This document shows positions 2,389-48,331 of a stretch of 64,000 nt of DNA, piece after piece. Every line of letters begins with the position of its first letter. Position 1 is the stretch's first letter. The DNA lies in contig OX344751.2 of assembly GCA_947034885.2 (NCBI GenBank), forward strand, positions 43,615,082-43,679,081, read 5' to 3'. This stretch comes from Thuidium tamariscinum. Its lineage: Eukaryota > Streptophyta > Bryopsida > Hypnales > Thuidiaceae. Under the pieces are notes generated by a model. That model did no database searches and was not told the DNA's origin. It saw nothing but the letters and a program-made list of their open reading frames with translations. The position numbers were made by a program, and so were the translations under genes.

Positions 2389-2723
2389 AGGTAAGAGGTC
2401 CTATAATGGACCATCTAAGGGCTGAAACAGAATTTCAGGGAGATAAAACTTCTAGAAATATTTTTCAGTAAATTTTCCTTGAAAGACAAGTAGAATTGAC
2501 ATTTAACGCAAGTCATTTCATATTTTTCTGAGCTTTTTTGAATTAGTTATCAAATTTTGAAGTTGAAAGGACATAAGGTTCTAAAATGGTGCCATAGCTA
2601 AAATGTACACTGTCAGTACAGTAGTACACTACTGAAGGCTATGAAAAAGCAACATGTACAAATACTGTACATTTTAGAGAGGGCACCATTTTAGAACCCG
2701 CTCCATTTAAGAGCCTTCTACCT
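2389..2723 (-). mobile_element. TA-flanked MITE, family 1, copy 1 (335 bp)
   Basis: The ends are inverted repeats, AGGTAAGAGG at the left and the complement of AGGTAGAAGG at the right, with TA on both sides (2387-2388, 2724-2725). The same sequence occurs inverted at 4093-4418 and 9179-9494. An inner inverted block reads AAAATGGTGCC and GGCACCATTTT. There is no coding capacity. The TA duplication fits Tc1/mariner-like or related non-autonomous elements, but the superfamily is not proven. Confidence 0.75.
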
Positions 2724-2987
2724 TAGGGTTTCAGACTTCAGAGAACTTACAAGTTACAACCTCGCAATTTTGCATAGTCATTCAATAATAAGCAATTCAA
2801 CATTTCAGGCTATAGGTTGAATTGTGTATGTATGTTGGTTGGTATGTTACTCACCCCATTTTTTTTTGGTCTTAAGGTGTTTTGATTCTTGTAAATGTTG
2901 GCTTGTTATCACTAATCTCCCCATTTTTTTTTGTCTCATGTTGTTTGATTTTTGTAAATGTGAATGTTGTGGGCATGTCGTACTAAC

Positions 2988-3043
2988 CAGCCTTCTGAAA
3001 ATGCATGGACCCTCTTTTGGATCTGTGCATTTTCGGAAGGCTG
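2988..3043 (+). other. Imperfect hairpin
   Basis: CAGCCTTCTGAAAATGCA pairs with the later TGCATTTTCGGAAGGCTG, with one mismatch and a loop of about 20 nt. It lies directly upstream of the tRNA-like fold at 3045-3098. It could be a small foldback element or part of a short retroposon. Confidence 0.5.
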
Positions 3044-3044
3044 A

Positions 3045-3098
3045 ATCCTTGGCCCTAAGTTAGTAGGGTCAATGCCAGGTTCAAATCCTGCCAAGGAT
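3045..3098 (+). other. tRNA-like fold lacking an anticodon arm
   Basis: An 8-bp acceptor-like stem is formed by ATCCTTGG (3045-3052) and CCAAGGAT (3091-3098). Inside is a perfect T-arm, CAGG-TTCAAAT-CCTG (3076-3090), and a D-arm-like CCCT/AGGG hairpin (3053-3068). GGTTCAAATCC matches the Pol III box B consensus. Only about 7 nt lie where the anticodon arm should be, so this is not a functional tRNA. It may be a truncated tRNA or a SINE head. Confidence 0.4.
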
Positions 3099-3939
3099 AA
3101 TACTTAAAAACAATTTTGAAGCAAAACAAAGCCACTTCAAGAATGAAGAATAAAACCAAAAAAAATTACAACCGGATAGATTTTTACTTTGAAGGAAAAT
3201 TTCCGGTTGGAATAGGACAATGGTGGCAATGCAACCAGGAGAATAAAAATATTCTAGGAAATTGGCCGGCAAATTCTACAACCTCCTGGCACACTTCCGA
3301 CCAATTTTTGAAAAACCCGGGAAGGATGAAATTCTAACAAAAATCTACCGTTTGGCTCATAGAACTCCCCGGACTGTGGTAGGGGTCATGGGCCATGTAA
3401 TGGACAAGTCAATGGTTCTAAAATGGATTGTCAATAATGTGAGTGCATAATTAAGACTTGTCATATGTTGTTTTATACTTTGCCAATGGATGGAATTGGA
3501 GTCAAGAAGGGTGCATTTCAAAACCAGGGTATGTTTACTTAATTTTTATGAATGAAAATTGATTGCCCAATTAACTTCTTCCAAATGTTAAAATAATGTA
3601 AGATTCATTTAAATTTTAATAAGATCACATTTAGGAATTTCATGTATTATTTTTTTGATGCAACATTGCTTATTTGAAGTCAAGCCATATCTTTTTTCAG
3701 ACCACATGTGCATGGTTTTTGTAAGGCCTATAAGTCAAGAATAGGTATCTACCCTAGAATTCTTTGAAAATTCATAAGCAATTCATAAATGCTCTAACAA
3801 ATATGAAACCCACTTGGGTTAAACTCCTCATCAATTCCTCTTCAAGAGAAAAATAAGTTAAAAAAATTCGAACTTTTGAAACCCATCAAAAAGGCCAACA
3901 GCCCTTAAAAGGGTCACTTTTTGAGCCGGCTACCTTGCG

Positions 3940-7620: not shown

Positions 7621-8867
7621 TTGAAGAGAGAAAATTGCATTAACTTTGAAGGTATGTAAGTTTAGTTTTAGACAATTGGATCTTAGCTAGGAGCAAAAAT
7701 TGTGCCTTCCAAAGCTTAAAAATCAATTTTCTAGACATAAAAACAACAACATTACAGTCTTTAAATTTAAAAAATCCTAATACTTTGTTTCTTGTAGATT
7801 ATGTTTTGTTTGCATGGAAAAACTAGGATTCATTCCATTTGAATTAGTGATGTGAAAGTTATCAGAGCTTCTTGTTTTGCAAAAAACCTTTGCAAATCCT
7901 TGAAAAAATAAAATATTGAATTTTCTTTTGAACTCAATTTTCATAGTTTTCAATAAAGAGTTCCACAAGGGTCAATTTCCTAGATAGAAAAATCTCACCA
8001 TTGGAATAAGTGTACTTCAACTTCATCTTAAAGTTATTAATAATTTAGATTTTTATTCTATCTTGCACCTATTTCTTCTTTAAAATTTATAATAAATGGA
8101 AATCAAGTTGTTGGTTTCTTAAAAATTTCACCCTAGACTTTCAACTCCATTCTTCAATTAAAAAAATTTTAAATTTTAAATTCTAGTATAAACATTATAA
8201 ATTAAAAAGATTCAAAGTCTTATGATTTCACGAAGTACTGTGCAATAGGAAAAACTTGTTTTCTTGTATTTTCAAAGTATTCAACAATTTTCATATCTTG
8301 CACTTGATCTAGTGGTTCAAGTTTCTAAAATTTTATCCACATATTTTTATATTTGTCTAGTGCAAATTCCTATGATTGTGCAAACAAGAACAAAAAAAAA
8401 GATTAGTTTTAAGAAAATTTTCCTTGTAAAAACATGATAGTTTTGTTTGTGTTTTTTTTGCAAAAAACAGCCTGTTCAAATATAAAGCAAAGTAGAGACT
8501 ACAAAAATAGAATCTAATAAAAAAAAATTTGAAAGAAAACATGAAATATTTGATCCTTTGAGTTTGAGATTATCCATCCCCAACTATCCTTCAATTCCTT
8601 GATTAACCCATAAACATGACAAACATAATCTACAAACATGTTTTGTTTGATGGATAACAAGGATCCTTCTAATATGTAGGTAGAAAATGTATCTATTCAT
8701 TTTTAGGTGAGGTCTTCTATAGTAGATTGATTTGTACAGTGAATACTTTTTGGATTTTTCTAAAAGTAAATGATTCACATTGTAACAAGAGAGATGATTT
8801 CCATGGTTAGTGGCTCGTCCGTTTAATGGTTAACAAACAACTTGGCTCACACTAAAGGGTTGCTGTT

Positions 8868-9085
8868 ATGTGAGTATAAAAGTGTGAGCTTCAGAGCCTA
8901 GAAGACTATACACCTATGACATAAAGTATTTATATTATAGTAACCTTCTATATTTAATAGTATATATATGCTATAAGTACCTATATTATAGGTGTTTGTA
9001 TCATAGACACTTTCAATGGTTGCATGATATATACTTATATATATGCTCAAGACTCTCATACTTACACTTTTATGCTCACATACTA
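8868..9085. repeat. Inverted-repeat element (about 218 bp)
   Basis: TATGTGAGTATAAAAGTGTG near 8868 is inverted at the right end (about 9055-9085), with a few mismatches over 30 bp. The middle is AT-rich with TATATA tracts. No target duplication was identified, so it is only a candidate MITE. Confidence 0.45.
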
Positions 9086-9178
9086 GCACCGTTGACTCAC
9101 ACTACTATGGATCCACATGCATCATTTAGAGATTCAACCACACCACCATCTTCCTCTTCCATAGGTAGAAGTGTAGGA

Positions 9179-9494
9179 AGATAGAAGGCTCTTAAATAGA
9201 GCAGGTTCTAATATGGTGCCCTATCTTAAATGTACATTACTTGTACATGTTGCTTTTTCATAGCCTTCAATAGAGTACTAACAATGTACATTTTAGCTAG
9301 GGCAACATCTTAGAGCCCTATGCCCTTTCAACTTCAAAATTTGATAACTAATTAAAAAAAGCTGAGAAAAATATGAAACAACTTGGGTTAGATGTCAATT
9401 CTACTTGTCTTTGAAGGAAAAATATTTATAGAAGTTTTACCTCCCTAAAATTCTGTTTCAGCCCTTAGATGGTCCATTATAGGACCTCTTACCT
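9179..9494 (+). mobile_element. TA-flanked MITE, family 1, copy 3 (316 bp)
   Basis: It has the same orientation and inner blocks as the copy at 4093-4418. The right end is flanked by TA (9495-9496). The left flank is degenerate. Confidence 0.7.
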
Positions 9495-9632
9495 TAACCC
9501 CCGCATTGTACACTCACACATTGGAGCATGAAAAATTCCAACTCACATCTATGCAACAGCCAACATCATTCTTCACTTCAGCTCAAATGAAAATCAAAAG
9601 AGTCAGTCTTGAGAATGAAATTACAATTAATT

Positions 9633-9837
9633 TGTTGAGTATAGTAAGCGAAACAAAATCACAAAGCAATAAACAACACCAAAGTATACTCAAAGAACTA
9701 AGTGTCTTCATAATAAGTTGGTGGTATATACAAGGGGAGAAGGGAGAGAGACAATGAATAGTTCCCTTCTCCCATTGGACAAGAATGATTCCCTAAGCCA
9801 CGTATCACTCACCATTATGGTGAGCGTTCACACTACA
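9633..9837 (-). repeat. Candidate copia 3' LTR (205 bp)
   Basis: On the minus strand a purine-rich GAACGAGGAGGAG tract (9860-9848) is followed by a stretch that starts TGTAGTG and ends CTCAACA. It contains a TATATA box near 9725. It lies downstream of the copia pol relic on the same strand, as a 3' LTR should. No second LTR is present in the window to confirm the borders. Confidence 0.4.
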
Positions 9838-10400: not shown

Positions 10401-11806
10401 TGAATTTCTTGTTCCAAACTACTAAGTCGCCGCATTTCAATGCCATAGACAAGTCAACGATGGGTAGTTGATGGAAGAGCTTTGATAAAAAGATCAGCAA
10501 GATTATCTGCTGATGCAATTTTTTTAACTTCAAGTACTTCGTCTATAATTAAGTCATTAGTAAAGGTGAAATACTTTGGATCAATATGTTTTGTACGATC
10601 ACCTTTAATAAAACTTGCTTGCATTTGAGTAACACAAGCACTATTGTCTTCGTATAAAACAGTTGGAGAATTATCATAAAATAATCTATAGTTTGTTCGA
10701 ATGAACTTGTCAATCGATCTCAACCAAATACATTCACGAGATACTTCATGTAAAGCAACAATTTTTGCATGGTTAGATGATGTGGCAGTAATAGTTTGCT
10801 TTACTGATTTCCAAGATATTGCAGCTTCATGTCACAAGAAAACATAGCCTGTTTGAGATTTAGATGTTGCAGGATCAGATCTATATCCTGCATCAGCATA
10901 TCCAACTAATGTTGGATCAAGTGAATGAGTATAGTGTAGTCCCAAGTCTTCAGTTCCTTTCAAATAACGGAAAAGGTGTTTGATGCCATTCCAATGTCAA
11001 AGTGTAGGTCGAGCACTATGCCTTGTAAGAACACTGACTGCAAATGAAATATCAGGTCTTGTAGACGTAGCCAAGTATAAAAGTGCTTCGATCGCAATGA
11101 GGTATGGATAATTTTCACCAAGTGTTTCCTCCTCCTTCTCGCAAGGACGGTAAGGGTCTTCACCTTGAGAACTGCGACCGACCATAGGTGTTGACAAAGG
11201 ATGTGTATCAAACATGTTGAATCTTTTTAAGATTCGGTTGATGTAGGTTGTTTGAGAAAGAAAAATACTACTATCTTTCAAATGATGAACTTGCAAACCA
11301 ATACAAAAGGTAGTATTGCCAAGTAATTTCATTTCAAACTCTCGAATAAGTAGTTGAGTAGCTGTAGTTAATGCAGATTTGGTACCCACTAGGTTTAAAT
11401 CATCAACATAAACTGCAATGATGACAAAACCATCTTTGTCTTGTTTAATAAAGAGACATGGAAGTAATGAATTATTAATAAAGCCATTTGCAATAAGAAA
11501 TTGTTGTAAGCGTTGGTACCACATGCGTCCAGATTGTTTAAGACCATATAGTGCACATTGTAATTTAACGCCACGATGTTTGCCTGAAATAGTAGTGCTT
11601 GGAGTTGTAGATTCAAGGCCAAGTGGGACTTTCATATAAATATTGGTATGAAGTGAGCCATATAAGTAAGCAGTAACAACATCCATAAGTATCATCTCAA
11701 GGATAGTGTGGACTGCCATTCCAAGGAGATAACGAAAAGTAATAGTATCCATAACTGGTGAATATGTGATATCATAATCAATGCCAAACTTTTGTGTGTA
11801 TCCCTA
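10401..11806 (-). pseudogene. Ty1/copia pol relic: reverse transcriptase C-terminal part and RNase H
   Basis: The minus-strand frame begins at GYTQKFGIDYD near 11806. It passes the reverse transcriptase landmarks YSPV, YGLKQSGR-x-W and the catalytic YVDDL (near 11390-11400), then TSTRPDISFAVSVL. After that comes an RNase H-type region with VGYADAGY and EDNSACV, ending near ADLFIKALP and GIEMRRL. These are copia-specific landmarks; the encoded enzymes would copy element RNA into DNA. The frame is open from 11752 to 10997 and again from 10723 to 10454, with stops and a shift between, for example near 10835. Gag, protease, integrase and the N-terminal reverse transcriptase are missing. The upstream end is cut by the inverted-repeat-bounded insertion starting at 11807. 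Confidence 0.9.
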
Positions 11807-13559: not shown

Positions 13560-14540
13560 ATACTACATATTTTGTACACAAAGAACCTTTCTAGTGGAGT
13601 CAATACCATGAAAATATGTCTAGTACAATGCCAATAGAACTTCGTGAAGTACTTGTACTCTAACTACTCTGAAGTAAGACGAATTGTCAAGTTTAATAAC
13701 AACTTGAGTACTATTCTAATGTTTAAAGTACGGACTATATTACAAAACTTCATAGAATACTTAGTGATTTTCATAAATGTACACTTCTGAATGAACAAAG
13801 TAGTCTTAGTATTCTATAGCAAAAGTAAGGTACAATCACTGACCTTGAAAAAGTATTATTTGATCAAAAAGTACTAATAGGTATTCGGGTATCTCTGTCC
13901 CCACTTATTGCACTATACTAATCAATACTTTAGTATGTATGCAAAGTATGTTTCTCTTGTGTTTAATACAATTAGAGTTTTTTGAGAACAATTTTAGTAC
14001 TACTCAGGTATCTAATATTACAAAAATACCTTTCTCCAGTACCACGTCCAAAGTTTTAAAACCATTGCAGGTTTCATGAAATGTTTTTAATACATGTTGT
14101 ACTACATTAGTTTTGAGGGCGTAATTAGTATAGTTAAAAATTCAAAACGGATTGTTGAAGATGATACTCATTATATTATTTGGTGAAAATATGATCAAAT
14201 TAGTTTATTTTAACAAGTATGTTTATTATGAACACTGCTACAAGGTGTCTAATTAAATGTGGCTAACTGTTTTTTAGTAACCATTGTAGAGTTCTAGAAC
14301 AACATCAAAACCAATGAACGTTTCATTGCTCTTTTTACTAATGTAGGTTTTTGGTTGTTTTAAATAGACCTTAAAATTCTAAGTGTCTATTTCAAGAAGG
14401 TGTGGACTATTTGTAAATCGGAGGTCATACTCAGTGCAGTTAGAAATTCTAAATGTCTAGCTTAACAAGGTACTTATAGTACTCTATAAGTATTATTATT
14501 TCAATAAGTATTATTAGTTCAAAAAGGCTTACAAAGTTTT
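13560..14540. other. AT-rich leader rich in AGTAC/AGTACT motifs
   Basis: There is no gene here, but short motifs such as AGTACT, AAGTAC and TAGTAC recur densely on both strands, as they do at 16514-16700 and in the 20.8-21.4 kb tandem array. This may be a subterminal or promoter region of the transposon-like block whose transposase gene follows. Confidence 0.35.
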
Positions 14541-14546
14541 CACTTC

Positions 14547-16477
14547 TTGGTAGTGCAATTTTTTTGGCAGACTTGTTTCTTCTTGCGCTTCAAAGAGGCA
14601 CATCCTAAATGTACTGTGCACCAGAGAGCTTTCGAAAGGCTGAAACTGTGGTGGGTGAGAAAACTCAAGGAGAGAAATACTTGTTGCTGTATTTACCATG
14701 TCCTGATGGATTTTATGAAGGTTGCCTTGAGTAACCTTAGGGACAAACTCCGGAGGTTGCATGCAAGCATAAATTGTGCTTGTCAATGTGTGCTTTGTCT
14801 AGGCAATGGAGAGGGAGGCTGCCATGCACATGAACATGTTTTCAAGCGCATTACTTTGATGTGGGAAGCATGTATTTGTCCAAAGGGGGAGTTTGACCTT
14901 TGGCATAGGCTAGAATGCCTTATGGGAGATTGTCCTCACTGTGGATTCCACCTACTAACCTTCTGTGAATTGGAGTTATGTAGTACATCTTCATTTATCT
15001 TGAAGTGGAAGTGCTTTGAGTACTACCAGGTAGGGGTGGATGCCAACACAGGCAAGCCAAAGAAACGCTTGAAGGAAGTGTTCAAGGAGACTATTGCTCA
15101 TGTTTTTTTGTCATACATGGAGAAGACTGTGACAACTTTCATAACACACAATTTCAGAGCAAGGTGGCAGGATGAGCAATGCCAACTAATGATGGCCAAT
15201 GTTCCGAAGGGAGTTGTTGTTTCACACATTGACTACGCGGAGAATTACTCTTTTGCCATTCAAAACGAAGTTCAAAGTTTGTACTACTTTAGTACCTCTA
15301 TCACTATATTGGTTCACATCACCATGTGGAGGGAGGGAGATGAGATCTTCAAGCAAACTCACTTTTATATTTTTGATGATAAGGACCATGATTCAGTATT
15401 TGTCCAACATTATTTGCTTTTACATTGGGATTGGTTGGTTGATTCAGGGTTCTCTCTTGAGGAGCATTGGGTCTTCAGTGATGGTTGCAGCACACAGTTC
15501 AAGTGTACTACAACAATGTACTTTGTAGCACGGTACCCCATGCTCATAGGAGGGTGTATGATGCATTGGAATTTTTTTGAATCAGCTCATGGCAAAGGGA
15601 GTGGGATGGTGCAAGGGCAGTTGTGAAGAGAGCGCTAGCAGCTGAACAAATTCAAAACCCTTTACGGCCATTGCAAAATGCTAGTCAAGTAGTGTGATTC
15701 TTGGAGGAAAAGTATACAGAGCATGTTGTCAGTTCCTATACTCAATCCAAGACATCTTCTCTTTCCAGAGTGTTTTGGCACATTGGAGAGAAGGAGGTGA
15801 ATCACAACAACAATAGCTTGAAGTGCAACACTATTTTTGGTTCAAAGAGTCTATACTCTATCATGGGATTTTCCATGGTGAAGCCTACTCTTCTCAAAAC
15901 TCGTGCATTATCTTGTTTTTGCATTCCATGTGTCGATTGTGACTGGGATAATTGTGACAAGTACTCACATGTGCAACCATGGTAGGTGCAAAGACTAGTA
16001 CCAGTTAGCATTACTACAAATCCAGAACAGGTTGATATGGTGGATGAAGTGGAGAATTGGCTACACGATGGAGTATCTACAGAAATTGGTGACATGGTTG
16101 AAGTTGGAGACAACTTCATGATCCCAGCAGAGGAAGACAATGAAGATGGTGTGCAATTTTACATTCTACAATGTCAGAGGACAAAGTTTGTCTTGCAAGA
16201 ATCACTTATCTGTCCTTAGGGTGGGACCTTTAATTCTGGGGATGCTGTTATCAGGGGCAAGTACTACAAAAAGTTTGGACGTGGAGACAAGATATACGTG
16301 TTTTGTGACAGGGCAATGGATGCACATGTCGATGCTCATCTTGTTCGGGCTTGTAAGTTCCCTATGATTCTTGCCTCACATAGAGTGAAGGGTACTCCTA
16401 TGTACAAGATGTCTGCTGAATCCCAAAAAATGTGTGAAGATGCATTACAAGAATGGTGGGCATTCAATGCTGAGTAG
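14547..16477 (+). pseudogene. Cysteine-rich transposase-like gene (probable DDE type), broken
   Basis: The first frame opens at 14547 with only a TTG. A TTTTTTGGCAG acceptor-like site ends at 14570, so coding probably starts there as an internal exon. The N-terminal part is Cys/His-rich (NTCCC-x-YH at residues 44-51, then CAC-x-CVLC and CPHC). It is followed by H-x-DYAENYSF (D229), FSDGCSTQFK (D312) and FFESAHGKG (about 344-351). This order matches my recollection of a family of animal and plant transposon proteins with D-AENY, SDG-x-x-Q-x-K and SHGKG-x-x-DG motifs; I cannot name its superfamily. A single-base loss near 15605 moves the frame. The second frame continues with DGARAVVKRAL but meets TGA 15695, TAG 15983 and TAG 16217, then ends at TAG 16475 after a conserved-looking tail (VIRGKYYKKFGRGDKIYV). 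It is convergent with the SET gene at 17519. Confidence 0.65.
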
Positions 16478-16513
16478 GACTATAGTTTTCTCTTCAGGAT
16501 TTATGTGTTCCCT

Positions 16514-16700
16514 ACAGTATTTTTGGATACTAAAAGTACCTGAATTGTACTACTATTTAGTATTTCTGGATACTAAAAGTATCTTAATTGTACTACGATT
16601 TAGTGTTTTAGGTACTATAAGTTCTTGAATTGTACAATGATTTAAGAATTTTGGTTAGTAGAAGTACTTTAATCAGTATAGGATTTCAGTATTTTTGTAT
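16514..16700. repeat. Degenerate tandem repeat (about 45-bp unit)
   Basis: Three to four imperfect units containing GGATACTAAAAGTA followed by TTGTACTAC lie directly after the transposase reading frame. The AGTAC content resembles 13560-14540. The region from 16760 to 17500 is otherwise AT-rich spacer between the two convergent genes. Confidence 0.55.
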
Positions 16701-17518
16701 TTTTCAATTACTCAGTATTTTTAGATACTGCAGTTTTCATTGATAACGTTGGATTCCTACTTTTGAAGCTTTAGTTATGTTTGGCCTCATTACAGTGATT
16801 TTTTGAAGTTGTTTAATTTATAAAGCTTATATTCAATTTGTTTTTCAAGACCATTAGTTTATTTAAAAATGTTATTTTATGAGGCTAAACATATCAAAAC
16901 CCTTTAAATGATTCAATATTTGTAAAGCAAAGTCTTCAAAATACACACTACTAACATGATAACGAGTTAACAAAGAATCTTTAAAAAAAGTGCTAGATGA
17001 AAAAATTTCACTTACATTAGAAGTCATTGAATTTAAACAATAAAACCTCTGCAACCTACTCCATAATATACAAACTAACACCTCCACAAGTCTATTCTAG
17101 TGCCACTTTGGTTTGCTGAAAACCAACATTCCTTTCAACTGTAGGCATTGACAGAAACACCAATTAACCTAAGCACTACTCTGTCAAAATTGCATTACAA
17201 TACAAATGTTTTCAAGTTTGAATAGTAAATTGCAAGTACTTAAAATATAAAGTTTTCCAACTTCAAGGAAATGTATTCTAAAAAGTTCTACAAGTACAGA
17301 TTGTTGCAACTATATACACATGACTACTGAGGTCCAACCACCTCAACACTTCTGCTTCTAAAATTAAGTTTGCAAAAGGCGAGTGAAAACATTAGAAGCC
17401 AACTAGAAGCGCATTTCACACAAAACTATATTAGTAGTTCACATTCCGATTTTGAAATACAAATCACTTATATAATCTTGCCCATCATAAGCTGGCTTCC
17501 ACTTGGATTCTAATGTTG

Positions 17519-18480
17519 TCAATAAACCTTTGAAAATTTATCCCTACACATGACGCTTCCACATTTACAAGCAAAGGAAGGCAATTCTGGATCACAATTG
17601 TTGAAATCAATACCATAGTCCCATGTTAGCCCCTCCTGGGTTTCAATGTTACGATTTGAGAAAAAAGCAACGTGGTAGAAGCTCTTCCCACCGCTCTCAA
17701 TCTTAACAGGCATGTCAATCAGGTTTGCATCTCCACATCTCCACAACATTGTGCACTACCAATTAGAAGACCTACGTGCTTAAGCAAAAAACAAACAAAC
17801 TGAATAGGTTGTAGTAGATGTGAAACCTGTGATTGAGAAATTTGGCGACATTTCCAAAGTGAGTAGCATCCAAGCACAACGCTGTGTTGTCATTCGCTTT
17901 CTTCTCTGTAAACCAATCCGCATCAAGTTGCAAGCCGTATGATGGACCACCATCGACTACAAGGTTCCTAATCAGCATCTCTGCATTAGTCAATATCTCC
18001 CCAACCATCTCAAATAGATACGCACCTTTGGAGATAGATTCAACAGCTCGAATCCCCCATCCCATCTGCGCAGTATGGAAAACTTCAACTGAGTACTTCA
18101 TACCCTGCTGAACGACACAATTACCACATTTACTGTGGCATCCACATCTGAAATCACACTCCCTAATGAAAGTCCGATACATGTGACCACTGCTTTGCAA
18201 AAAACGGTCCTTCAACAACCCACCAGGGCTGTATGCAAACTCACCCCCAGTTGACTTTGTACACTGACAAGGAACCCGGCAGTCAAGCAATCATCTCTGC
18301 CACAAACATAGAATTCCCCATTTCCTAATCCAACGACAGAGGTATCCACTTGGGCACTCTCGTGCACCACACTAGTAGCCATATACTTGAAAGAATGCAT
18401 TGGTGAATCATGGGGAGCTACAGGTATTGGACGCGCCTCCAAGCCCCGAGACAAGTCCTCAGTACTGTATAAGTCCCCCT
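17519..18480 (-). pseudogene. Pre-SET/SET module, SUVR-type histone H3K9 methyltransferase
   Basis: The exon starts after an acceptor (CATGTAG) at 18481 with STEDLSRGLEARPIPV and SFKYMATSVV, the pre-SET approach seen in plant SUVR proteins. Pre-SET cysteines follow: C-x-RDDC, CRVPCQC, then GGEFAYSPGGLL and CDFRCGCHSKCGNC. The SET core has GWGIRAVESISKGAY, CLDATHFGNVAKFLNH, CGDANLIDMPV, AFFSNRNI, LTWDYGIDFNN, and the post-SET CKCGSVMCRDK. NH-x-C/DAN and the WDYG tyrosine are the cofactor and catalytic signatures of the family. A short intron (17739-17826, GT..AG on the minus strand) restores NHR-CGDAN, so the module was spliced. Near 18285 a one-base shift separates C-x-RDDCL from DCRVPC. Family resemblance is clear; a specific SUVR orthologue is not assigned. 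Confidence 0.85.
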
Positions 18481-18675
18481 ACATGAGCACATTAAGAACA
18501 ACCCACATTTGTATATAAAAACTACTGAAACAAGAAATTTGTGATGATAAATAAATATTCTCAATTTCAGAAACCTCCACTGTGAAGGCAAATTACAATG
18601 CTTTGCTTGCAGACCTAAAATCGAGCTCATTTAAATTCTGACCCCAACTGCATATCCAAAAACGTAAACAAAACA

Positions 18676-20292
18676 CTAGGAGCGCTGACACTTCTTTGAC
18701 AAAACTTTGTCTACCTGTGTAGACAATGTCAAGTTCCCCTGCTGAGATTTGGTATTCCTCCTGCCTAGAGGTGAAGGAATTGGGGCGGGATCTGTAATAG
18801 GGGCTTCTTCATCGCCACCTCCATCTACCCCCCCATTTACCCCTCCATTTATCCCCCCCATCTGCTATCTTGTTTGACTGAGTAAAATCACTATGCTCTG
18901 AACTATTTGGATTCTCTAGAGACGGTTGGGCTTCCTTGACATCCACTTCCGTGAAATTCTTCTTCCCCGGTTTCTTTTTCTTTGTCTTTCTTTTTTATTT
19001 CTTCACTGCGACTGCCTTCGGGGCCTTTTCCTCAACTTGCTGCTCTGATTCATCGCAGTCAGCCTGTGGCTCCACTTCCACAAGCTTCTCCTTTTCTGCC
19101 TTTGATTCTGCAAGCTCGTCATGCCGAACAACCACATCCCCAAGTCCGCCGTGACTACTTTGCCCCATTTCACCATCTTCGCAAACTTCACCTTTTGTTT
19201 CACTGTAGTCTCTCTTGTTGGAAGCCATCTGCTCCGCTGATTTGTCCTCAGCAAAAACATTACCCTCCCCAACATCTCCCTCATCCACAACCATCTCCTC
19301 CCCAACCTTCACTGCATCAGAAAGAGTACTCTTCCCATCATCTCCCTCATCAGCAGCCATCCCCGCCCCAACATCTCCCTCATCAGAACTCCCATTCTTC
19401 ACATTGCCCTCATGAGAACCAGTTGTGTCTTTAACATCTCCCTCAGAGTTGCACTTGCCCTCCCCAAGAATTACTTCTTCTACAGCTCCCATCTCCTCCC
19501 CTACCTCTGCAGTCACATGTTCATCTAGCTCACAATCTGAGCCTTTCTGATTCAATGCCAAGGTTGCCTCAAGCAACACTCCCTTGGTCTCAGCCTGTGA
19601 CCTTGCAGGCTCCCCGTCAACAACATCTGCATGGTCTGCATCCAGGCTATGTAATAAGTGCACCCCTTCTCTTACAGTTCCATGTACTGCCTCGTTTTCC
19701 TTCTGGATAACACCCCCAATTTCACCGAGTGGATTTGCCTCTAAAGCCTCTCCTTGGAATGTCTCGTCATCCCGTGGTCCACATACTAGCCTTGACAAAT
19801 GAGTTTTAGGGGGAGTGAAGAGGATTGTGTCCAAAAAAGTACCTGGAGGTGATTTCAAGAAGTTGCCATTCCCACCAGATGTATCAACTTCACCCACATG
19901 GCCTTTAATTCTCAAATCGTCAACGTCAGTGGAAATAGTGGTACCAGAGCTGTCGGGCAGGTTCAGGACCTTCCTCGCAAGTCCATCATCACTTGACTCC
20001 GTTTCTGAACTGAATTCAGGCTCTTCGTCCATGTCATTCTTGTTCAAGGCTGCCTTCACAATTTTTTTCTTCTTTCTCAATTTTGCTTTTACAACCGGAC
20101 TATCCACCTCACCTTGGCTTCTCTTCTTCTCATTCGTGTCAATGGCCTGTCGTGCAAAAATGTCTTCTTCTTTTTTTGATAGTGAAGGACGTCCCCAATT
20201 AGTAGCCTTCGGTGAGCAAACAGCTTGGCTAATTGCTCCCTCTGTAAAATTTGCTGGAGAGATTGCGGGACAAGCAAACTCCTGGCCTGAAG
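18676..20292 (-). pseudogene. Acidic disordered linker of the SET gene
   Basis: The frame runs from an acceptor at 20293 through ASGQEFACPAIS, a basic patch (AKLRKKKKIVKAALNK) and a long acidic Glu/Asp/Gly-rich stretch with repeated EGDV-type motifs, to a TAA at 18995-18997. The same frame continues after the TAA with a Lys-rich segment (KRKTKKKKPGKKNFTEVDVK). It is then put out of frame by a run of seven Gs at 18853-18859 and resumes one frame over as INGGVNGGVDGGGDEEAP down to 18676. Such linkers lie between the N-terminus and pre-SET of SUVR proteins, but no WIYLD domain was seen. The 3' splice to the SET exon at 18480 was not resolved. Plus-strand frames here are shadows. Confidence 0.55.
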
Positions 20293-21675
20293 CTACAATC
20301 AACAACAACGAATTGCCTTCAGCTGAACTACAAATCCTAAGCTTTATCAAACAAGTAGAATCACTGAGCCCTAACCTCTACCTCAAAATAAAATAACATG
20401 TACATGTACACAATCAGGCATTAATTACAACACAAATTCAAAAGAACTCCATCCATTCAAAATATATTGGTGTAGTACAGTTGCATCATTGGAAAGTTAT
20501 GATACTTTATGTACATTGTAATACAAATCAAGCCATTGAGTTCACTTAAGAAGAAATTAAGAAATGAAAGTATTACACCGAATACATTTCAGTCGATAGT
20601 ACTGAAGGCGTCGTACACGAGGTACATTCCAATATGAATTATATACTACAACTACCATCTTCACAATGTCGTTTTCTTAACTATCACAATTTGTACACAC
20701 AAAGAAATGAAAATTTGTTTAAAAAGTATCAGCACCAGGAAGAGTACTTTGAAAGACTGAAGAAAAAAAAAATTGACTGCTAATACTCATGTATGTTTGA
20801 TACAAATCAAGTATTTGGAATAATTAATCTTATAAGTATATTTAATACAAACTCAATACAATACTACACATTTATAGAGTATCAAAATTCTAGTACTCTG
20901 TGAATACAAAACTAATAATACTCTAAGTGCATTCCAATACGAACCAGGCTACTAACTCAATACAATACTACATGTTTAGAAAGTATCCAAATCCGAGTAC
21001 TCTGTGAATATAGAACTCATAATACTCTAAGTGCATTTTAATACGAACTAGGATACAAACTCAATACAATACTACACATTGGAAAAGTATCAAAATCCGA
21101 CTACTCTGTGACTAGGAAACTCATAAAACTCTAAGTACTTTCTAATCCAAACTAGGCGACAAAACGCAATACAAAAATACACATTTAGAAAGTATCCAAA
21201 TCCTAGGACTCTGCAAATACAAAACTAATAATACTCTAAGTGCATTCTAATACGAACTAAGCCACTAACTTAATAGAACACTACACATTCATAAAGTATC
21301 GAGATCCTAGTACTTTATGAATACAAAACTAAGAATGCTTTAAAAACATTCTAATAAGAACCAGGCCACTAAGTACGTTTCCAGCAAAATAAAGGAAATT
21401 GAAGTAGTTAAGATTACTGCTTTAGATGCCCTACAGAGTTCTCCGGGTTTCTATTAACTTGTACATTACATACAGACTATTCAAACATTGCATTCAACCA
21501 CTACTGAAGGGTACAGTAATACAAGTAAACCCATTCAAAAAAATATTACCCTAAACCCAAAACCCTACCGCAAACATGAATTGTGCTGTTAAGACTTAGT
21601 GAAACATGAATAACAAAGGAGGAAAGGTATGCATTGCTTGGAGATTGAGAATTGCAAAAAGAAAAGTGAACTTAC
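20293..21675 (-). other. Predicted intron of the chimeric gene
   Basis: The donor is GTAAGT (minus strand, from 21675) and the acceptor GATTGTAG ends at 20293, with phase 1 on both sides. It is AT-rich and contains a five-unit tandem repeat at 20845-21370. It is a prediction from splice consensus and reading-frame continuity only. Confidence 0.45.
20845..21370. repeat. Tandem repeat, five units of about 104 bp
   Basis: Each unit contains ACTCAATACAATACTACACA, then AAAGTATC, GTACTCTGTGAATA, AATACTCTAAGTGCATT and AATACGAAC. Units start near 20848, 20953, 21057, 21162 and 21267 and differ by point changes and small indels. The array lies in the predicted intron of the chimeric gene. Confidence 0.8.
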
Positions 21676-21734
21676 CAGCTAGTGGACATTTAGCTTTGGC
21701 TGCATCTGATCGATCCTGAAGAATTCTCTTCCTC
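21676..21734 (-). pseudogene. Exon end of the RING-like module beyond the insertion
   Basis: On the minus strand the frame reads RKRILQDRSDAAKAKCPLA and then a GTAAGT donor. Joining it to the frame that stops at 22466, by removing 21739-22461 and one TCCT copy, gives an uninterrupted helix-like sequence (LAEERKRILQ). Confidence 0.55.
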
Positions 21735-21738
21735 TCCT

Positions 21739-22461
21739 GGGTGGTTGCAAGAAACACCTGTCCTATTTTGTGTCACACGTCGCATTCTGATTTGTTTTTT
21801 GGCCATAACTTTTGTGTTTTAGCTTTGATTGACTCAAGATTTGGAGGGAAGGTGCTCATAAATATCATAAACCTTCCATAATTTTTTCATAATTTTCAAA
21901 AATATTTTACTATCCATAAATAGACCCCGATTGGTTGTCACACTTGGTAGTTTAGGGGTTTTCTATACCTGAGCTATACCTTTTTTTAATGATTTTGACA
22001 TGAAATTTGGATGAGATGGTCTTCTAATAGACTTCTATCTTTCTAGGGAAGGATTTCTAAAAAAAATTAATTTTGTGAGGTGTGGAGGTCTACAAAGTGA
22101 GCTCCCTTCTACTTGTATTTTGAAACATATAAAATATTATTCTGGTGGGTTTTTTGGTGAATGACCATCTCTATAAAGTTGTCGCAAATGGCTACTTTTT
22201 ATTTTTTGAAAATATCTATTTTTACTATTTTTCCCTAATTAAAACATGAAGGTATGTATTTTCTGGAGGTTTGGCACTTTTCAAGTTCTCCTACTTAGAG
22301 AATTTTTCTATCCATTTCCTTCGGTGAAAACCTTCATCTTAAAGGTATATACACTATTCATATTTTTAAATTTTTTTAAAACTTAATTTTCTAATTTTAA
22401 AGTACTCCCGAAAAAATCAGCCAAACGCAACAAATAGGACAGGTGTTTCTTGCAATCACCC
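21739..22461 (+). mobile_element. Non-autonomous element with 4-bp TCCT duplication (723 bp)
   Basis: The ends are GGGTGGTTGCAAGAAACACC and the inverse of GGGTGATTGCAAGAAACACC, and the identity continues to about 31 bp. TCCT flanks both sides (21735-21738, 22462-22465). It is an exonic insertion: removing it with one TCCT restores the host reading frame. A 725-bp relative lies at 35295-36019 and a longer palindromic one at about 44968-46119. It is non-coding. A 4-bp duplication is unusual, and the superfamily is unassigned. Confidence 0.8.
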
Positions 22462-24269
22462 TCCTCGGCAAGTCCAAGCATCAGAGCCCTTTGTACAAGG
22501 TCTAGACTCGGTTCCCCCCAGCCAAAACTCCGATGCCATTCAGGATGTGACAACGATTTACACCCCCTAGCCACACATCTCTGGCTACTACTGAAGAGAA
22601 CAGACGTACAAAAAGGGTGATACATATGGCGACATGAAGAAATCACAATGTCACAATGCGGGAATGGGAGGGAGCATAGGCAACAAACTGTGACCCCAAT
22701 AAACGTACTGTCAGTACCAAAGCTAGTCAAATTCAAGGTGTTTTCTTCACTAGAGACATATACCATTGGCCTTGGTAAGAAAGAAGTTTGAGCCTTGCCT
22801 CTCTTCAATGACCAGGATTGAGCCAGCAAGGCATCAAACTCCAATCGGTGGCACTCAATCCTATGTTGCACAATGGACAAGGCCGTCTCTGCTAGTTCAA
22901 GGTTGAACTTGGCTTCAACTACGTTTCGCTCTTCAAATGCCAATTGCTCTTGGACCATCTCCAATTTGATCAATTCCCGGGCTACATCTGCTCCACTGCC
23001 CTTCATCTCCTCAATTAACTTCAATTTCACCTCCATCTGACCTTGGAAAGTGCCTACAAGGCACTCTTTCTCCCTCCTCCTCCACTGGCACTTCTCAAGA
23101 TTGGATTAAGCCTCTTTGACTTCAATCTTCAACACTTCCCCTTCCATATGAACGACGCTCATCAGTGACTCGAACTCCGATAGTCACTCTGCTGAACCTG
23201 CCTTGGACAACGTTCCTCCTCCTCGTCGGAAGTCACTACCCTCGCAATCTGCAGACAACCCAGAACCCCCACCTGTCTCCCCAAGCTTGGATCGTGATGA
23301 AACTGGCACTCCTTCCGTTGGGTAAGTTTTCCCACTCCCCCCACGTCCTTCCACTCCTTTCCAGCCTGCCTCCACCTTCACGCCTTCTTGGCTTGGCTCG
23401 ACTTTGATCGATCTCCATTGCCGCCCTCGCATTTGAAGGGGCTTTGAAGAATCCTGCAAAGCACTCTTGAATGCTTGGAGCTTCTTCAGGTCTTTCTCAT
23501 GTCGATTTCGTTGCCTCTTGTTCGTTTCCTCCCCAAACAAATACCAATTCACCTCCTTCCGTCCCTTCTCGTACTCCATTGCCACTCCCTCAACCAAATG
23601 CACCTTCAGAAAGCCAGGTCCCTCGCTAGCGCCATGTTGATACAGAATTGGGTGCAGCTCTTCAATCCTTGCCCTCAAATCGGCATGTTCACATTGCTGC
23701 CAGGAAAACCCATTTCGACCACCTTCACCCAACGGATCCCCAAAGTATTTCCTCACCAACTTGGTTGGTAGTGAACCCTTTTTGTAGCGATGAGGATTCT
23801 GAATAGATTCATTGCAAAGTTGGTACTCCACGGCAAAATCTTCTCGAGTCAGCTTCCATGATGGTGGCTTCAAGTTCGAGATCTCAATGTCCACATCCTC
23901 AGCTGTCTAGTAAACCTTCCCCTTCTTTAATTTTGCCGCGGATCTCTTCCGCTTGCCCTCCATGTCGCTCACTTGTGTGATCTATTCTTCTTCGTCAGAG
24001 CCATCATCTCGTTCTTCGTCACTATGCTCATCCTCCTCAGCGCCTGGGAGGATAGCGTCACTCTTCTGTCCGCCAGTGCTTCGAGGAGCAAGTGGCCTAC
24101 TCTTACGCCCACTCTCTCGGGACTTCGACGCACTCAACTTTCCCTTACCCGCAGGATCCATCCTCTTTGCAAGGTTCCCCTTACCCGAATGCATTCTACT
24201 AGAAGTCTCCATCACTCTCGAACTGAAACTACTGGTAGCAACAATGAAGAGTAAGTGGAACTCCCACAC
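22462..24269 (-). pseudogene. N-terminal module: basic region, unknown domain, coiled coil, RING/PHD-like zinc cluster
   Basis: One minus-strand frame runs the whole length but is cut by four stops: TAG 23982-23984, TAG 23907-23909, TGA 23184-23186 and TAA 23106-23108. A likely start is the ATG at 24212 (METSSRMHSGKG). In order it has a Lys/Arg/Ser-rich stretch ending in an acidic DEERDDGSDEEE, a bipartite NLS-like KRKRSAAKLKKGK, an unrecognised globular region (LKPPSWKLTREDFAVEYQL to EEVNWYLFGEE-like text, about 23880-23540), and a Glu-rich heptad-like coiled coil (about 23100-22850). Next is a zinc cluster CCLC-x(9)-CDIVISSC-x-H-x-YHPFC with a later C-x(4)-C and H (about 22680-22540). The cysteine spacing resembles RING or PHD fingers, which could bind chromatin or act in ubiquitylation. 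No exact family was recognised. Confidence 0.5.
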
Positions 24270-24628
24270 AACTGAGAATGTTCCCCTTCAAAGCTCAGGT
24301 ACCTCCTGAACTATCTGCATTGCTACACCTGAGCCTTTAGTCGCGCCGCATTGAAACGCAAAGCCTAAACCAGAATCCAATTGTGCTCAACAAAACCAAC
24401 TATACACTCAAATGAATCCCCCACAAATTAAAAAGAATCCGGTAAACACTCATCGCAATCTCTCAACCCTCATGGAAATCCCAAATCCAATTTCCCGAAC
24501 ACTGAGGGACTCGCGTACGCAATGCACATTATCTCATAATGCCAATCCTAACGCGACAATTATGCCCAAACAGAATTCCAAAATCGTAGCTTCAAGTGAG
24601 CGCGGGAGGAAGGAAAAAATGAAGCAAA

Positions 24629-24664
24629 CGGTAGTCGTCTCGCAAAGGTGCGAGACGACTACCG
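24629..24664. promoter_or_regulatory. Perfect 16-bp hairpin upstream of the chimeric gene
   Basis: CGGTAGTCGTCTCGCA (24629-24644) is followed by a 4-nt AAGG loop and its exact complement to 24664. It lies about 400 bp upstream of the predicted start. It could be a protein-binding dyad or a tiny foldback insertion; the function is unknown. Confidence 0.6.
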
Positions 24665-24732
24665 CCAAACGGAAGTGGCTGCAGGTGTTCAACCGGTGGT
24701 CACCAGTCAGAGAACAGTTACCCCAAAAAAGG

Positions 24733-24809
24733 CAACCGGTGATCACCGGTTTGATACGTTCAGTAGTAATCATGTTTCAATTGATGAAGAGTGAAACATG
24801 ATTACTACT
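24733..24809. promoter_or_regulatory. Palindrome ACCGGTGATCACCGGT and an adjacent 18-bp hairpin
   Basis: The 16-nt perfect palindrome lies near 24735-24750. It is followed by AGTAGTAATCATGTTTCA (24762-24779) and its exact complement (24792-24809) around a 12-nt loop. A related AACCGGTGGTCACCAG lies near 24690-24706. This cluster of dyads may mark the control region or outer edge of the block to the left. Confidence 0.55.
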
Positions 24810-24833
24810 AATTGGTAAGTGACACCATAATGT

Positions 24834-24950
24834 ATATACTTATTTTGATTTGATTTTAGTAGTTTTGAATATTTAATACTTTTTATGATATACTTATTAC
24901 TGAGTTGATCTTAGTAGTTGTGAATATTTAATACTTTTTATAGTATGATA
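24834..24950. repeat. Direct duplication (about 60 bp, two copies)
   Basis: TATACTTATT..TTTTAGTAGTTTTGAATATTTAATACTTTTTAT occurs twice in succession with a few differences. It sits immediately outside the dyad cluster. The DNA from 24950 to 25550 is AT-rich with no gene seen. Confidence 0.6.
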
Positions 24951-25556
24951 TTGCAATTGTAGTACATTAGCTCAACATGGAAATTTTTAGTTTGTATGTT
25001 CAATGTTGAAATGTGAATAAAAATCACCTATTTTTGTAACACAAGTGAATATAAGGAGTAAAATTAAAATAATATAAATGTATATTAAAAAAAATTATAT
25101 TTAACTCCATGTGCTAGAATTCAATTAAGTATTGGAAATTTGAAGTAGTTACCTCCATTTGATAAAGTATAATAAATTGAAAGGAATTATTAGAATTTGA
25201 AGATTAGGTGTTGGAAATTTGATCTAGTCTTTGGTACATTGGTCTTCAACTATAAATATTAAAGACTATTAAGAATGCACAACACATGATAATATATAAC
25301 CTCCCTCTAGGTTACCCTAAACCTTTAAATCAATTGCTAGTTATTCTCAAACAAATAGTATTGCACTATGTACAATTTTGGAAAGCCTAAGGTATATGTG
25401 GTAAAGAACCAATGGATGAACGAAATAGATAAACTTGTATATTGTGTTTCCGAATGTACATCCTAAAGGCAAAACGTTGATGACATATTATACAAATTAA
25501 AAGACAAATGCAAAAACATTGGTCATCAAATTCGGATTAATAAACGGGATTAAAAA

Positions 25557-25645
25557 ATCAATCTTCACAATGAACCCTAAACTCTATTTGAAAGTTAGAG
25601 TGAGGGACCCTAAACCCTACACCCTAAACCTTAAACCCTAAACAA
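25557..25645 (-). repeat. Degenerate interstitial telomeric repeats
   Basis: CCCTAAA-type units recur (GACCCTAAACCCTACACC, then CTAAACCTTAAACCCTAAAC), interspersed with other sequence. This is the Arabidopsis-type plant telomere motif in C-rich orientation. It directly precedes the palindrome satellite. Confidence 0.6.
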
Positions 25646-25666
25646 ATGGAATTGGGAAACGGTTTG

Positions 25667-27235
25667 TATGTTAGACTGATATGATCTAACACATAAAAAA
25701 AATTGGAATTGATGAAAGGTTCATGTGTTAAATTCATATGATGAAATACTTAAATAAAATTAGAATTAAGAATAATTGGTGTGTTAGATCAATATGATCT
25801 AACACGAAAAAAAATGTATAATTGGTGGATGGTTTGTGTGTGTTAGATCGATATGATCTAACACACACATAAAATTTGGAATTCGTGAATGGTTGACCGT
25901 GTGTTAGTTTGATATGATCTAACACGTAAAAATAATAAAAAAATTGGTGAATGGTTGGTATGTTAGATTAATATAATCTAACACATAAAAATAATAAAAA
26001 ATTGATGAATGGTTGGTGTGTTAGATTAATATAATCTAACACTTTAAAAAAAAAGTATAATTGGAGAATAGTTGGTGTCTTAGATGAATATGATCTAACA
26101 CAAAAAAAAATGTATAATTGGTGAATGGTTTGTGTGTGTTAGATCAATATGATCTAACACAAAAAAAATGTGTAATTGGTGAATGGTTTGTGTGTGTTAG
26201 ATCGATATGATCTAACACACACACAAAATTTGGAATTCGTGAATCATGGTTGACTGTGTGTTAGTTTGATATGATCTAACACGTAAAAATAATAAAAAAT
26301 TGGTGAATGGTTGGTGTGTTAGATTAATATAATCTAACACATAAAAATAATAAAAAATTGGTGAATGGTTGGTGTGTTAGATTAATATAATCTAACACTT
26401 AAAAAAAAAGTATAATTGGAGAATAGTTGGTGTGCTAGATGAATATGATCTAACACGAAAAAAAATGTATAATTGGTGAATGGTTTGTGTGTGTTAGATC
26501 AATATGATCTAACACACACAAAAAATTTGGAATTCGTGAATCATGGTTGACCGTGTGTTAGTTTGATATGATCTAACACATAAAAATAATAAAAAATTGG
26601 TGAATGGTTGGTGTGTTAGATTAATATAATCTAACACTTAAAAAAAAAGTATAATTGGAGAATAGTTGGTGTGTTAGATGAATATGATCTAACACGAAAA
26701 AAAATGTATAATTGGTGAATGGTTTGTGTGTGTTAGATCGATATGATCTAACACACACACAAAATTTGGAATTCGTGAATGGTTGACCGTGTGTTAGTTT
26801 GATATGATCTAACACATAAAAAAAATGTAGAATTGATGAATGGTTGGTGTGTTAGATCGATATGATCTAACACGTAAAAATAATAAAAAATTGGTGAATG
26901 GTTGGTGTGTTAGATTAATATAATCTAACACTTAAGAAAAAAGTATAATTGGAGAATAGTTGGTGTGTTAGATCAATATGATCTAACACGAAAAAAAAAT
27001 GTATAATTGGTGAATGGTTTGTGTGTGTTAGATCAATATGATCTAATACAAAAAAAATGTATAATTGGTGAATGGTTTGTGTGTGTTAGATCGATATGAT
27101 CTAACACACACAAAAAATTTGGAATTCGTGAATGGTTGATCGTGTGTTAAATCAATATGATCTAACACGTAAAAATAATAAAAAATTGGTGAATGGTTGG
27201 TGTGTTAGATTTATATAATCTAACACTTAAAAAAA
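25667..27235. repeat. Palindrome satellite: about 27 hairpin units spaced near 59 bp
   Basis: Each unit has a dyad of the type GTTAGATCAATATGATCTAAC, often extended by GT/AC steps on both sides, and an AT-rich spacer (AAAAATGTATAATTGGTGAATGGTT or AAAAATAATAAAAAATTGGTG type). Variants come in an ordered set: GATC/GATC, GATT/AATC (both arms changed together), GTTTG/GATC, and long (GT)n/(AC)n forms. They recur in blocks of four to six units, a higher-order repeat. Short reading frames inside merely translate the repeat. The palindromes could form cruciforms or hairpin RNA; no function is shown. Confidence 0.85.
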
Positions 27236-27539
27236 AGTATAATTGGAGATTGGTTGAATCAAAAAAGACAAACTAATTGAAGTCATATTCTAGTCAATAA
27301 TATTTTGCTCTATAAAATTTGGCAATTCATAAGAAATATATACATGCAAAAGAATCTTAAGAAGCATTATCACTAATTTTTTCTTCTAAATATGCCTTCT
27401 TTTTATACTAGATGGGTGTTTAAAATAGTTCTTCGTCCATTATTTATCCAAAAAACAACTAATACCGGAATTTCCATAAGAGTTGCCTTCAAAACTATTA
27501 TGCAATTCCATATTACGGATGGTTTAGAGTTACAATGAA

Positions 27540-27905
27540 AGTGTCCATCCCGGGCGGGAACGGTTGTCATGGGATCCTCAACTTTAATTCAAATTCGGTG
27601 ATTCAAATAGCCTCAACCTTATTTAAATAGTATTGAAGCCAGGAATCCGGGCGGCAACATGGTTTGTCCACTACGCCCCCACTACGCCTCACTAAGTCCA
27701 TTCCTAATCTGGTATGATCCAGATCATCACATTAACAAACTTGACCAGGTGACTGTTGTCCACTACCCGCCCACTAAGTCCCCTCCTAATCTGGTATAAT
27801 TCAGATCAGCCACATTAAAACACCTGACCAGTTGACTTGCTGCTTACTGGTTGATCTAGATCGATCAACCCAAAACTGCCCGATCGAGATCGGGAGATGG
27901 CACGC
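27540..27905. repeat. GC-richer segment with a direct duplication and GATC palindromes
   Basis: Two copies of an 80-90 bp unit (near 27664 and 27746) share TTGTCCACTAC, CCTAATCTGGTAT, CAGATCA and TTGACCAGNTGACT-like text. They are followed by TTGATCTAGATCGATCAA and CCCGATCGAGATCGGG. The composition differs from the AT-rich surroundings. No gene was recognised. Confidence 0.5.
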
Positions 27906-28054
27906 TTGTTGTGTTCATTTGATTAATACATTTTAGTACTTTTGAGTACTGTTTTTGAACTATGTACATTCTGGTTTTGCCAAAAGTGTATGGGGTCTAG
28001 TGTACTTCAACCCTTTAAGAAAAATCAGGTGGAGGAGATTTTTATACCCTTTAA

Positions 28055-47945: not shown

Positions 47946-48331
47946 GAGCATCCCCATGCCACAGCCTTCAAACAGGGGCGTTAAATGAGTTTTGACATGG
48001 GGTCATGGTTGGTGAAAGTGCCTCATGCCCCATGCCAACACTCCAAATAAACTCACTAAACACATCCCCCAAGGAAAAAAACTACCTGTCAGGCCAAATG
48101 TTGGGCCTCCACGCTCCCAATGGCTGAAAATTCTGTGAAAGTGTGCCAGATTGAAGAAATCGAGATTTAGTGAGCCACATTGAAGAAACACAACAATAGA
48201 GTGTGGTTGTTAATTTGAAGTTTCTGCTGGGTAAATATTTGCTTTGAAGTGCCTGGCATGGGGCAGTTCACAAGGCAAACACTCCATATAATGAATTTGG
48301 AGCCCTTTGAAGAGCAGGCATGGGGATGCTC
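47946..48331 (-). mobile_element. PIF/Harbinger-type MITE D (386 bp), inverted partner of C
   Basis: The ends are GAGCATCCCCATGCC and its inverse, with TAA at 47943-47945 (shared with C) and 48332-48334. It is an inverted near-identical copy of C with a single copy of the 48-bp unit. The pair forms one long foldback structure within the LINE frame. Confidence 0.9.

Follow-up and report, generated by a model that had tools for sequence, protein, structure and literature searches.

The moss Thuidium tamariscinum carries, on contig OX344751.2 of assembly GCA_947034885.2, two convergent genes that raise the question of whether a plant DNA transposon can own a histone methyltransferase. The stretch analysed, which we call the window, is 64,000 nucleotides long (positions 43,615,082 to 43,679,081 of the contig, or C3:43615082-43679081 in the naming used here). 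An initial annotation had proposed that a Cys-rich transposase gene on its plus strand and a minus-strand gene ending in a SET domain belong to one mobile element. When the genome (363.2 Mb, 19 contigs) was searched for copies, we found that the two genes are parts of one element with its own SET gene. This gene also encodes a RING-H2-like finger and is termed RING-SET. The explanation that fits the data best overall, to which we give a probability of about 0.8, is that the window holds a dead, truncated copy from a family of terminal inverted repeat (TIR) transposons in which the RING-SET gene is fixed, and that the gene product may mark the chromatin of the element itself. Individual copies from elsewhere in the genome are referred to by names such as C11a, C2a, C7a, L039 and L040.

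The pair, which the initial annotation knew from one place, recurs throughout the genome. The transposase open reading frame (ORF) gave 117 matches (110 of 406 candidates scored) at 108 loci, with counts that are lower bounds; the SET exon gave 140 loci from the best 150 of 157 matches, and an N-terminal domain of the RING-SET protein (N-domain) gave at least 141 matches at 130 loci. Same-strand fragments up to 3 kb apart were merged before counting, and a locus was scored as lacking SET when none was found among the matches listed. A SET match lay downstream in convergent orientation, within 12 kb, at 82 of the 108 listed transposase loci, against about 0.25 expected, and at none of them did SET lie on the same strand as the transposase or upstream of it. 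Chance neighbours were rejected on this count. The pairing held at 15 of 16 loci with transposase identity of 84% or more (group A), at 15 of 16 with 60-78% (group B) and at 52 of 76 with 55% or less (group C). The exceptions in groups A and B were C4:32385432, where a convergent SET lies 25.2 kb away, and C11:13007600, where one lies at 21.1 kb; all 32 group A and B loci are paired if 26 kb is allowed, a figure set after the count (the initial limit was 20 kb). The identities of paired transposases and SET genes to their counterparts in the window were correlated (Spearman 0.76, n=82). Furthermore, 98 of the 130 listed N-domain loci had SET downstream on the same strand, and among the 140 listed SET loci 58 had both N-domain and transposase in place, 31 the N-domain only, 25 the transposase only and 26 neither. 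The SET matches were spread over 11 contigs, like the transposase matches, and a syntenic host SET gene was rejected because of this dispersal.

The outer ends of the element were revealed by its full copies. In addition to the window copy, ten group A loci out of 16 were extracted with their flanks and aligned to the window, and nine of the ten were found to have a further left arm in common. Six copies with both ends measured 15,959-17,292 bp (16-17.3 kb). All six start with GGGTTGAAGTACACTAGACC(C) and finish with its inverse, an exact 16-bp core being present at both ends; the complete TIR, GGGTTGAAGTACACTAGACCC, is 21 bp long in C11a and C2a and 20 bp in C7a. Identical 4-bp flanks were found in 6/6 of these copies (TTGG, TGGA, TTGC, CAAT, TTAA and TTAG), and none extended to 5 bp. 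Both marks of a class II TIR transposon, terminal inverted repeats and a target duplication of fixed length, here 4 bp, were thus present, and in every two-ended copy transposase and SET gene are enclosed by a single TIR pair with matching duplications. Together with the genome-wide pairing, this bore out the proposal that the two genes are one element. The transposase, encoded in at least two exons, would act on the 21-bp inverted ends and generate the 4-bp duplications.

Several known superfamilies were compared with these ends and rejected. Kolobok and piggyBac would be expected to give TTAA-specific duplications, and only one of the six is TTAA. In the passages of PMC10741241 that treat the other superfamilies, CACTA (EnSpm) elements have CACTA/G termini and a 3-bp duplication, as against GGGTT termini and 4 bp here; Mutator duplications are 7-12 bp; and Ginger elements have TG...CA ends with TIRs of 40-270 bp, as against GGG ends and a 21-bp TIR.

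The copy in the window is truncated on the left. Alignments of other copies begin at 13568 or slightly inside and, where the extracted stretch extends that far, reach about 28013. Around 2.8 kb of the left arm is missing (C11a has 2,801 bp more on that side) and the left TIR with it; only the right TIR is kept, including the 16-bp core. The element had first been taken to end at 24810 with neither TIR detectable. We found instead that its right end lies 3.2 kb past that boundary, and that the TIRs exist in other copies, the right one also inside the window. TIRs at the boundaries first assigned were rejected since the true ends lie elsewhere, and the hairpins upstream of the SET gene were rejected as the right terminus because they are internal. 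The similar decay attributed to both genes was real in its stops, frameshifts and a nested 723-bp insertion; several of the supposed breaks, however, proved to be introns. These data indicated that a large TIR DNA transposon, presumably of the cut-and-paste kind, left the dead and truncated copy seen in the window.

The plus-strand gene was present as described, in decayed form. Its Cys-rich ORF at 14508-15626 holds the motifs DYAENY, SDGCSTQFK and HGKG, and the coding frame, interrupted by three in-frame stops and shifted once near 15600, extends to 16474. A putative first exon lies in the left arm (2528-3478 in C11a), and with that arm missing no complete transposase can come from the window copy. 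The D-AENY/SENY and SDGC-QFK motifs were found in three lineages and HGKGE in two, the L039 exon stopping before HGKGE. No match over the cut-off was obtained against Pfam and no relevant match against PDB.

The minus-strand gene was modelled by eye from the splice signals and frames of the genomic sequence, and its copies were compared. In order, the predicted protein comprises a charged N-terminus, the N-domain (query 23187-23906), a helical-looking stretch, a C3H2C3 finger (about 22520-22700), an acidic linker, pre-SET, SET and post-SET. The SET exon of the window alone matched PF00856 at 1.9e-7; when the SET exon of another copy was joined to the last exon of the window, PF00856 matched at 5e-17 over 105/105 positions and Pre-SET (PF05033) at 1.4e-12, which upheld the earlier assignment of a convergent gene ending in SET. 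The best PDB match of the joined SET exons was EHMT2/G9a (G9a/GLP; 1.9e-37), the alignment covering the NH, WDY/FDY and post-SET stretches. The make-up of the Su(var)3-9 class (G9a/SUVR-like), pre-SET, SET and post-SET, is therefore complete. WIYLD, the N-terminal domain stated for SUVR4, had no match in the scanned ORFs at E values up to 1, and the N-domain had no Pfam match over the cut-off. The finger matched zf-RING_2 weakly (1.7e-3; 19 bits, below the cut-off of 27.3), and the eight ligand positions of its C3H2C3 pattern, assigned by eye, are kept in two families.

Among the distant SET families, the single one read was L039. Its transposase is 42% identical to that of the window and it carries the same gene, with matches of 9e-14 for the N-terminal part and 6e-17 for the finger (pairwise BLAST) and 1.1e-24 for SET. 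The intron between NHR and CGDAN is common to the window and L039 in position and phase (CAC AG, then A TGT). The opposite case is L040, a transposase copy in whose 10 kb no SET was found. Used as a query, it gave 69 matches at 68 loci (68 of 488 candidates scored), which were compared with the listed SET matches plus ten further ones. In the L040 clade (identity of at least 43%), none of 39 loci had a convergent SET within 20 kb among the matches listed, and therefore the pairing belongs to one lineage and not to the whole transposase family. Both transposase searches together gave at least 140 distinct loci, 82 of them with SET. Fifteen transposases, 10 with SET and 5 without, were chosen for a maximum-likelihood tree, in which a long-branch join is flagged among the SET-less rows; one branch split the two groups with support of 95/95, and one gain or one loss is therefore the simplest history. 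Collectively, the restriction to one part of the transposase tree, the presence in very diverged families and the shared intron indicated that the SET gene has long been a fixed part of the element.

Some further observations concern the distribution of these genes. Facing its transposase, L040 has acidic ORFs on the minus strand at 8641-9707; a convergent gene of another kind may be present in the SET-less lineage. Two of the lone SET loci, on C7 and C8, rank among the three highest PF00856 scores and fall within open frames of 606 and 630 amino acids; they are probably host genes. In some families an apparent second N-domain gene, with frames of about 500-550 amino acids, stands behind the RING-SET gene (C11:13396151/13407600 and C2:35047797/35038939), and larger elements may exist. 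Contig C11, which makes up 17.5 of 363 Mb, holds 7 of the 16 close and 8 of the 16 middle-family loci as against 3 of the 76 distant ones, and could be a sex chromosome or one that otherwise recombines poorly.

We wanted to know what state the copies are in. In 11 close-family copies (the ten extracted ones and the window), with stops and frameshifts judged against a reference copy, transposase exon 1 was open in 5 and absent in 2, transposase exon 2 was open in 2 (frames of 656 amino acids) and RING-SET exon 1 in 2; RING-SET exon 2 was open in 1, the reference itself, the SET exon in 7 and the post-SET exon in 10. Among the private changes of the window copy, 135 of 186 were C to T or G to A. 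Its C to T rates were 33/422 (.078) at CG, 49/640 (.077) at CHG and 53/3345 (.016) at CHH, and under a stricter filter CG and CHG exceeded CHH in 11/11 copies, in some of them on few events. This bias indicates a footprint of CG and CHG methylation; the copies were methylated and silenced, and the footprint does not identify the silencer. CHG methylation in plants is coupled to methylation of H3K9 (histone H3 lysine 9). Within the family (11-14 copies), nonsynonymous to synonymous ratios for shared/singleton changes were 0.42/0.51 for SET, 0.31/0.74 for the N-exon, 0.65/0.50 for the transposase and 1.43/0.56 for the linker.

How might such a protein serve the element? In the function that we favour, and hold tentatively at somewhat under even odds, the N-domain would bring the RING-SET protein to the chromatin of the element, the targeting being a guess, and the SET domain would methylate H3K9 in nucleosomes at the element itself or at its target sites. 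The finger would work alongside SET, possibly as a ubiquitin ligase. The element could thereby set its own chromatin state, either one tolerable to the host or one that goes with a choice of heterochromatic sites. By analogy with SUVR4, the presence of a RING-H2-like finger in a SET protein that lacks a WIYLD match hints that ubiquitin may take part here as well. As to origin, we put at evens the proposition that a plant DNA transposon lineage gained a RING-H3K9-methyltransferase once, before its present families diverged, and has retained it as a functioning chromatin writer that possibly couples ubiquitin and H3K9 methylation. Under such a single gain, the writer would set the silencing of copies or their landing sites, and the SET-less lineages of the same genome would be a natural control.

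A number of results weigh against a fixed and working chromatin writer. SET-less related transposase loci exist, and therefore the SET gene is not needed for transposition. Such loci are not confined to the L040 clade, as 13 of the 29 lower-identity L040 matches lacked SET and 16 had it, and 24 of the 76 distant group C loci had no SET within 20 kb among the listed matches; one of the 39 SET-less loci of the L040 clade does have an N-domain match within 30 kb. Conversely, 26 of the 140 listed SET loci stand alone and 25 of the 130 N-domain loci have neither SET nor transposase nearby. Where the active site of the close family and of G9a has a Y, the L039 SET has an F by eye, and its activity may differ. 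None of the 11 close-family copies is open in all six exons, and the within-family ratios do not separate function from drift. Finally, CG/CHG-biased decay is expected of any silenced plant transposon and is no proof that the element marked itself.

The alternatives were weighed on the same evidence. The strongest of them, which we nevertheless regard as unlikely, turns the proposed role around: RING-SET would be a decoy or dominant negative of the host H3K9 pathway, for example by binding or ubiquitinating host methyltransferases, so that copies escape silencing in the manner of plant Vandal elements, which use an unrelated protein. Transposons with epigenetic counter-tools do exist, the Vandal regulators and the fungal TET/JBP carriers being examples in the relevant part of PMC12730594, and a RING-H2-like finger conserved between two families at its eight ligand positions (by eye) would suit such a protein. 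In the close-family SET, however, the post-SET cysteines are retained along with the NH and WDY stretches, which would not be required of a mere decoy, and the copies, with their CG and CHG decay, were methylated. Methylation of a non-histone partner, such as the transposase itself, with the effect of limiting or licensing transposition, appears improbable; the paired genes are always convergent, which would allow mutual regulation, but the closest PDB structures are histone H3K9 enzymes and no partner is known.

Lower still we place the idea that the element carries a captured fragment of a host SUVR-like gene without function. Large plant transposons often capture gene pieces, many frameshifts distinguish the copies in the acidic linker exon, and selection within the close family is weak. 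Yet SET is present across families whose transposases are 41-55% alike to that of the window, the intron, finger and SET motifs are conserved in L039, and the SET-bearing transposases form a single branch of the tree. The chance that a transposase remnant simply has an unrelated host SET gene, or another element, as its neighbour is close to nil: the case for linkage originally came from the window alone, and it now includes 82 of 108 listed loci, where 0.25 were expected, together with shared TIRs and target duplications. Marking of its own chromatin by the element stays the favoured function, ahead of interference with host silencing, then a non-histone substrate, and then carriage without function.

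Table 1. Features of the transposon copy in the window (positions in the window; exons numbered in the direction of transcription)
Feature	Position	Strand	Basis or remarks
TIR DNA transposon copy, decayed, left-truncated	13568..28013	.	Alignment of other copies
AGTAC-rich left internal noncoding stretch (putative transposase intron region)	13568..14510	.	16 AGTAC in 13560-14510, 11.3-fold over outside
Transposase exon 2, D-AENY/SDGC-QFK/HGKG	14571..16474	+	3 stops, 1 frameshift; presumed start, from CAG acceptor
43-bp AGTAC-rich tandem repeat between the convergent genes	16515..16695	.	Inside stretch aligned in copies
RING-SET gene, whole; pseudogene in window copy	17519..24212	-	Splice signals, frames, copies
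RING-SET exon 4, end of SET and post-SET (CKCGSVMC)	17519..17738	-	
RING-SET exon 3, pre-SET and most of SET	17827..18478	-	1 frameshift near 18290
RING-SET exon 2, long acidic linker	18715..20292	-	
AGTAC-rich RING-SET intron with 104-bp tandem repeat	20400..21440	.	14 AGTAC, 9.0-fold over outside
RING-SET exon 1, last piece, past nested insertion	21676..21734	-	
Nested 723-bp TIR element (GGGTGGTTGCAAGAAACACC...) in exon 1	21739..22461	.	30-bp arms 21739-21768/22432-22461
RING-SET exon 1, first piece: charged N-terminus, N-domain, helical-looking stretch, RING-H2-like finger	22466..24212	-	4 in-frame stops
Short hairpins upstream of RING-SET gene	24629..24809	.	Perfect arms 24629-24644/24649-24664 and 24762-24779/24792-24809
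58-bp tandem array with internal dyad (TGTTAGAT...ATCTAACA)	25650..27256	.	Length differs between copies
Right 21-bp TIR, GGGTCTAGTGTACTTCAACCC	27993..28013	+	Left-arm start of C11a matches 21/21 bp inverted

The remaining features of the element are collected in Table 1. The AGTAC-rich surroundings of the two genes were confirmed, the motif being 8.7 times as frequent as in the rest of the window over three noncoding stretches beside or inside the genes combined (13560-14510, 16480-17480 and 20400-21440). The first-arm strings of the two hairpins occur in 6/10 and 10/10 copies. A 10-bp motif of the 58-bp array was counted 18 times in the window and 6-21 times in the ten extracted stretches, some of which are incomplete; its repeats are possible binding sites. 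The nested element is flanked by the 4-bp target duplication TCCT (21735-21738 and 22462-22465), and its site is empty in the nine copies read of the ten extracted. With GGGT ends and a 4-bp target like those of the large element, it may be a non-autonomous cousin of it; immediately beyond copy C11a stands a 73% relative (L014 9333-9947). Elsewhere in the window, on the minus strand, are a copia-type remnant with reverse transcriptase (RVT_2) and RNase H-like parts, close to where the element is truncated on the left (10454-11803), an ankyrin-type ORF of 576 amino acids (37161-38891), likely a host gene and one that we take to be of the PGG type, and a zinc-knuckle ORF of long interspersed nuclear element type, recognized by eye (48167-48667). 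Viral-contig scans, phage and plasmid searches, Rfam at the gathering threshold and NCBIfam for five ORFs gave nothing informative on the element.

In most accounts transposons are on the receiving end of H3K9 methylation; the lineage described here itself encodes a writer-class enzyme and has kept it through deep divergence. The case is relevant to the question of whether transposons restrain themselves, hide or undermine silencing, and the co-existence of SET-bearing and SET-less lineages in one genome allows a direct comparison of copy number, insertion sites and silencing. The literature, searched by titles and the starts of abstracts, yielded no family of plant transposons that carries a SET gene of its own, which is weak evidence of absence as most subscription papers and the Repbase reports fall outside the search.

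DNA transposons that carry SET are already known, and the element described here differs in host, in termini and in its RING-SET fusion. SET histone methyltransferase genes occur in the HarbingerS and MuDR transposons of oomycetes (Kojima and Jurka 2014, as cited in the part of PMC12730594 that concerns them), which likewise have a SET gene beside the transposase. Those elements have oomycete hosts and Harbinger or MuDR transposases, a distinction drawn from their description, whereas the present one has a plant host, 4-bp duplications, GGGT termini and a SET domain fused to an N-domain and a RING-H2-like finger. The element also recalls Sola, which according to passages of PMC10741241 and PMC9033089 makes 4-bp duplications, has some members above 15 kb, occurs in the moss Physcomitrella and uses a DDD transposase; duplication length, large size and moss occurrence are in common and the acidic motifs here look similar, a likeness drawn from description. 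Those Sola passages mention no SET gene, and the element here has one. The fungal TET/JBP transposons, as presented in part of PMC12730594, are comparable in that several superfamilies carry a chromatin or DNA-methylation enzyme; theirs is a dioxygenase acting on methylcytosine, while here a gene of the histone methyltransferase class is found in a plant. Arabidopsis SUVR4 and human G9a/GLP have the same pre-SET, SET and post-SET of the Su(var)3-9 class. SUVR4 binds ubiquitin through its N-terminal WIYLD, and ubiquitin alters its output (PMC7218100, in the portion on this protein); going by that description, the RING-SET protein has a RING-H2-like finger and an N-domain instead. SETMAR, matched in PDB as 3bo5, also unites SET and transposase in one locus, but as described it is a host gene fused to a transposase, whereas in Thuidium the SET gene belongs to the moving element.

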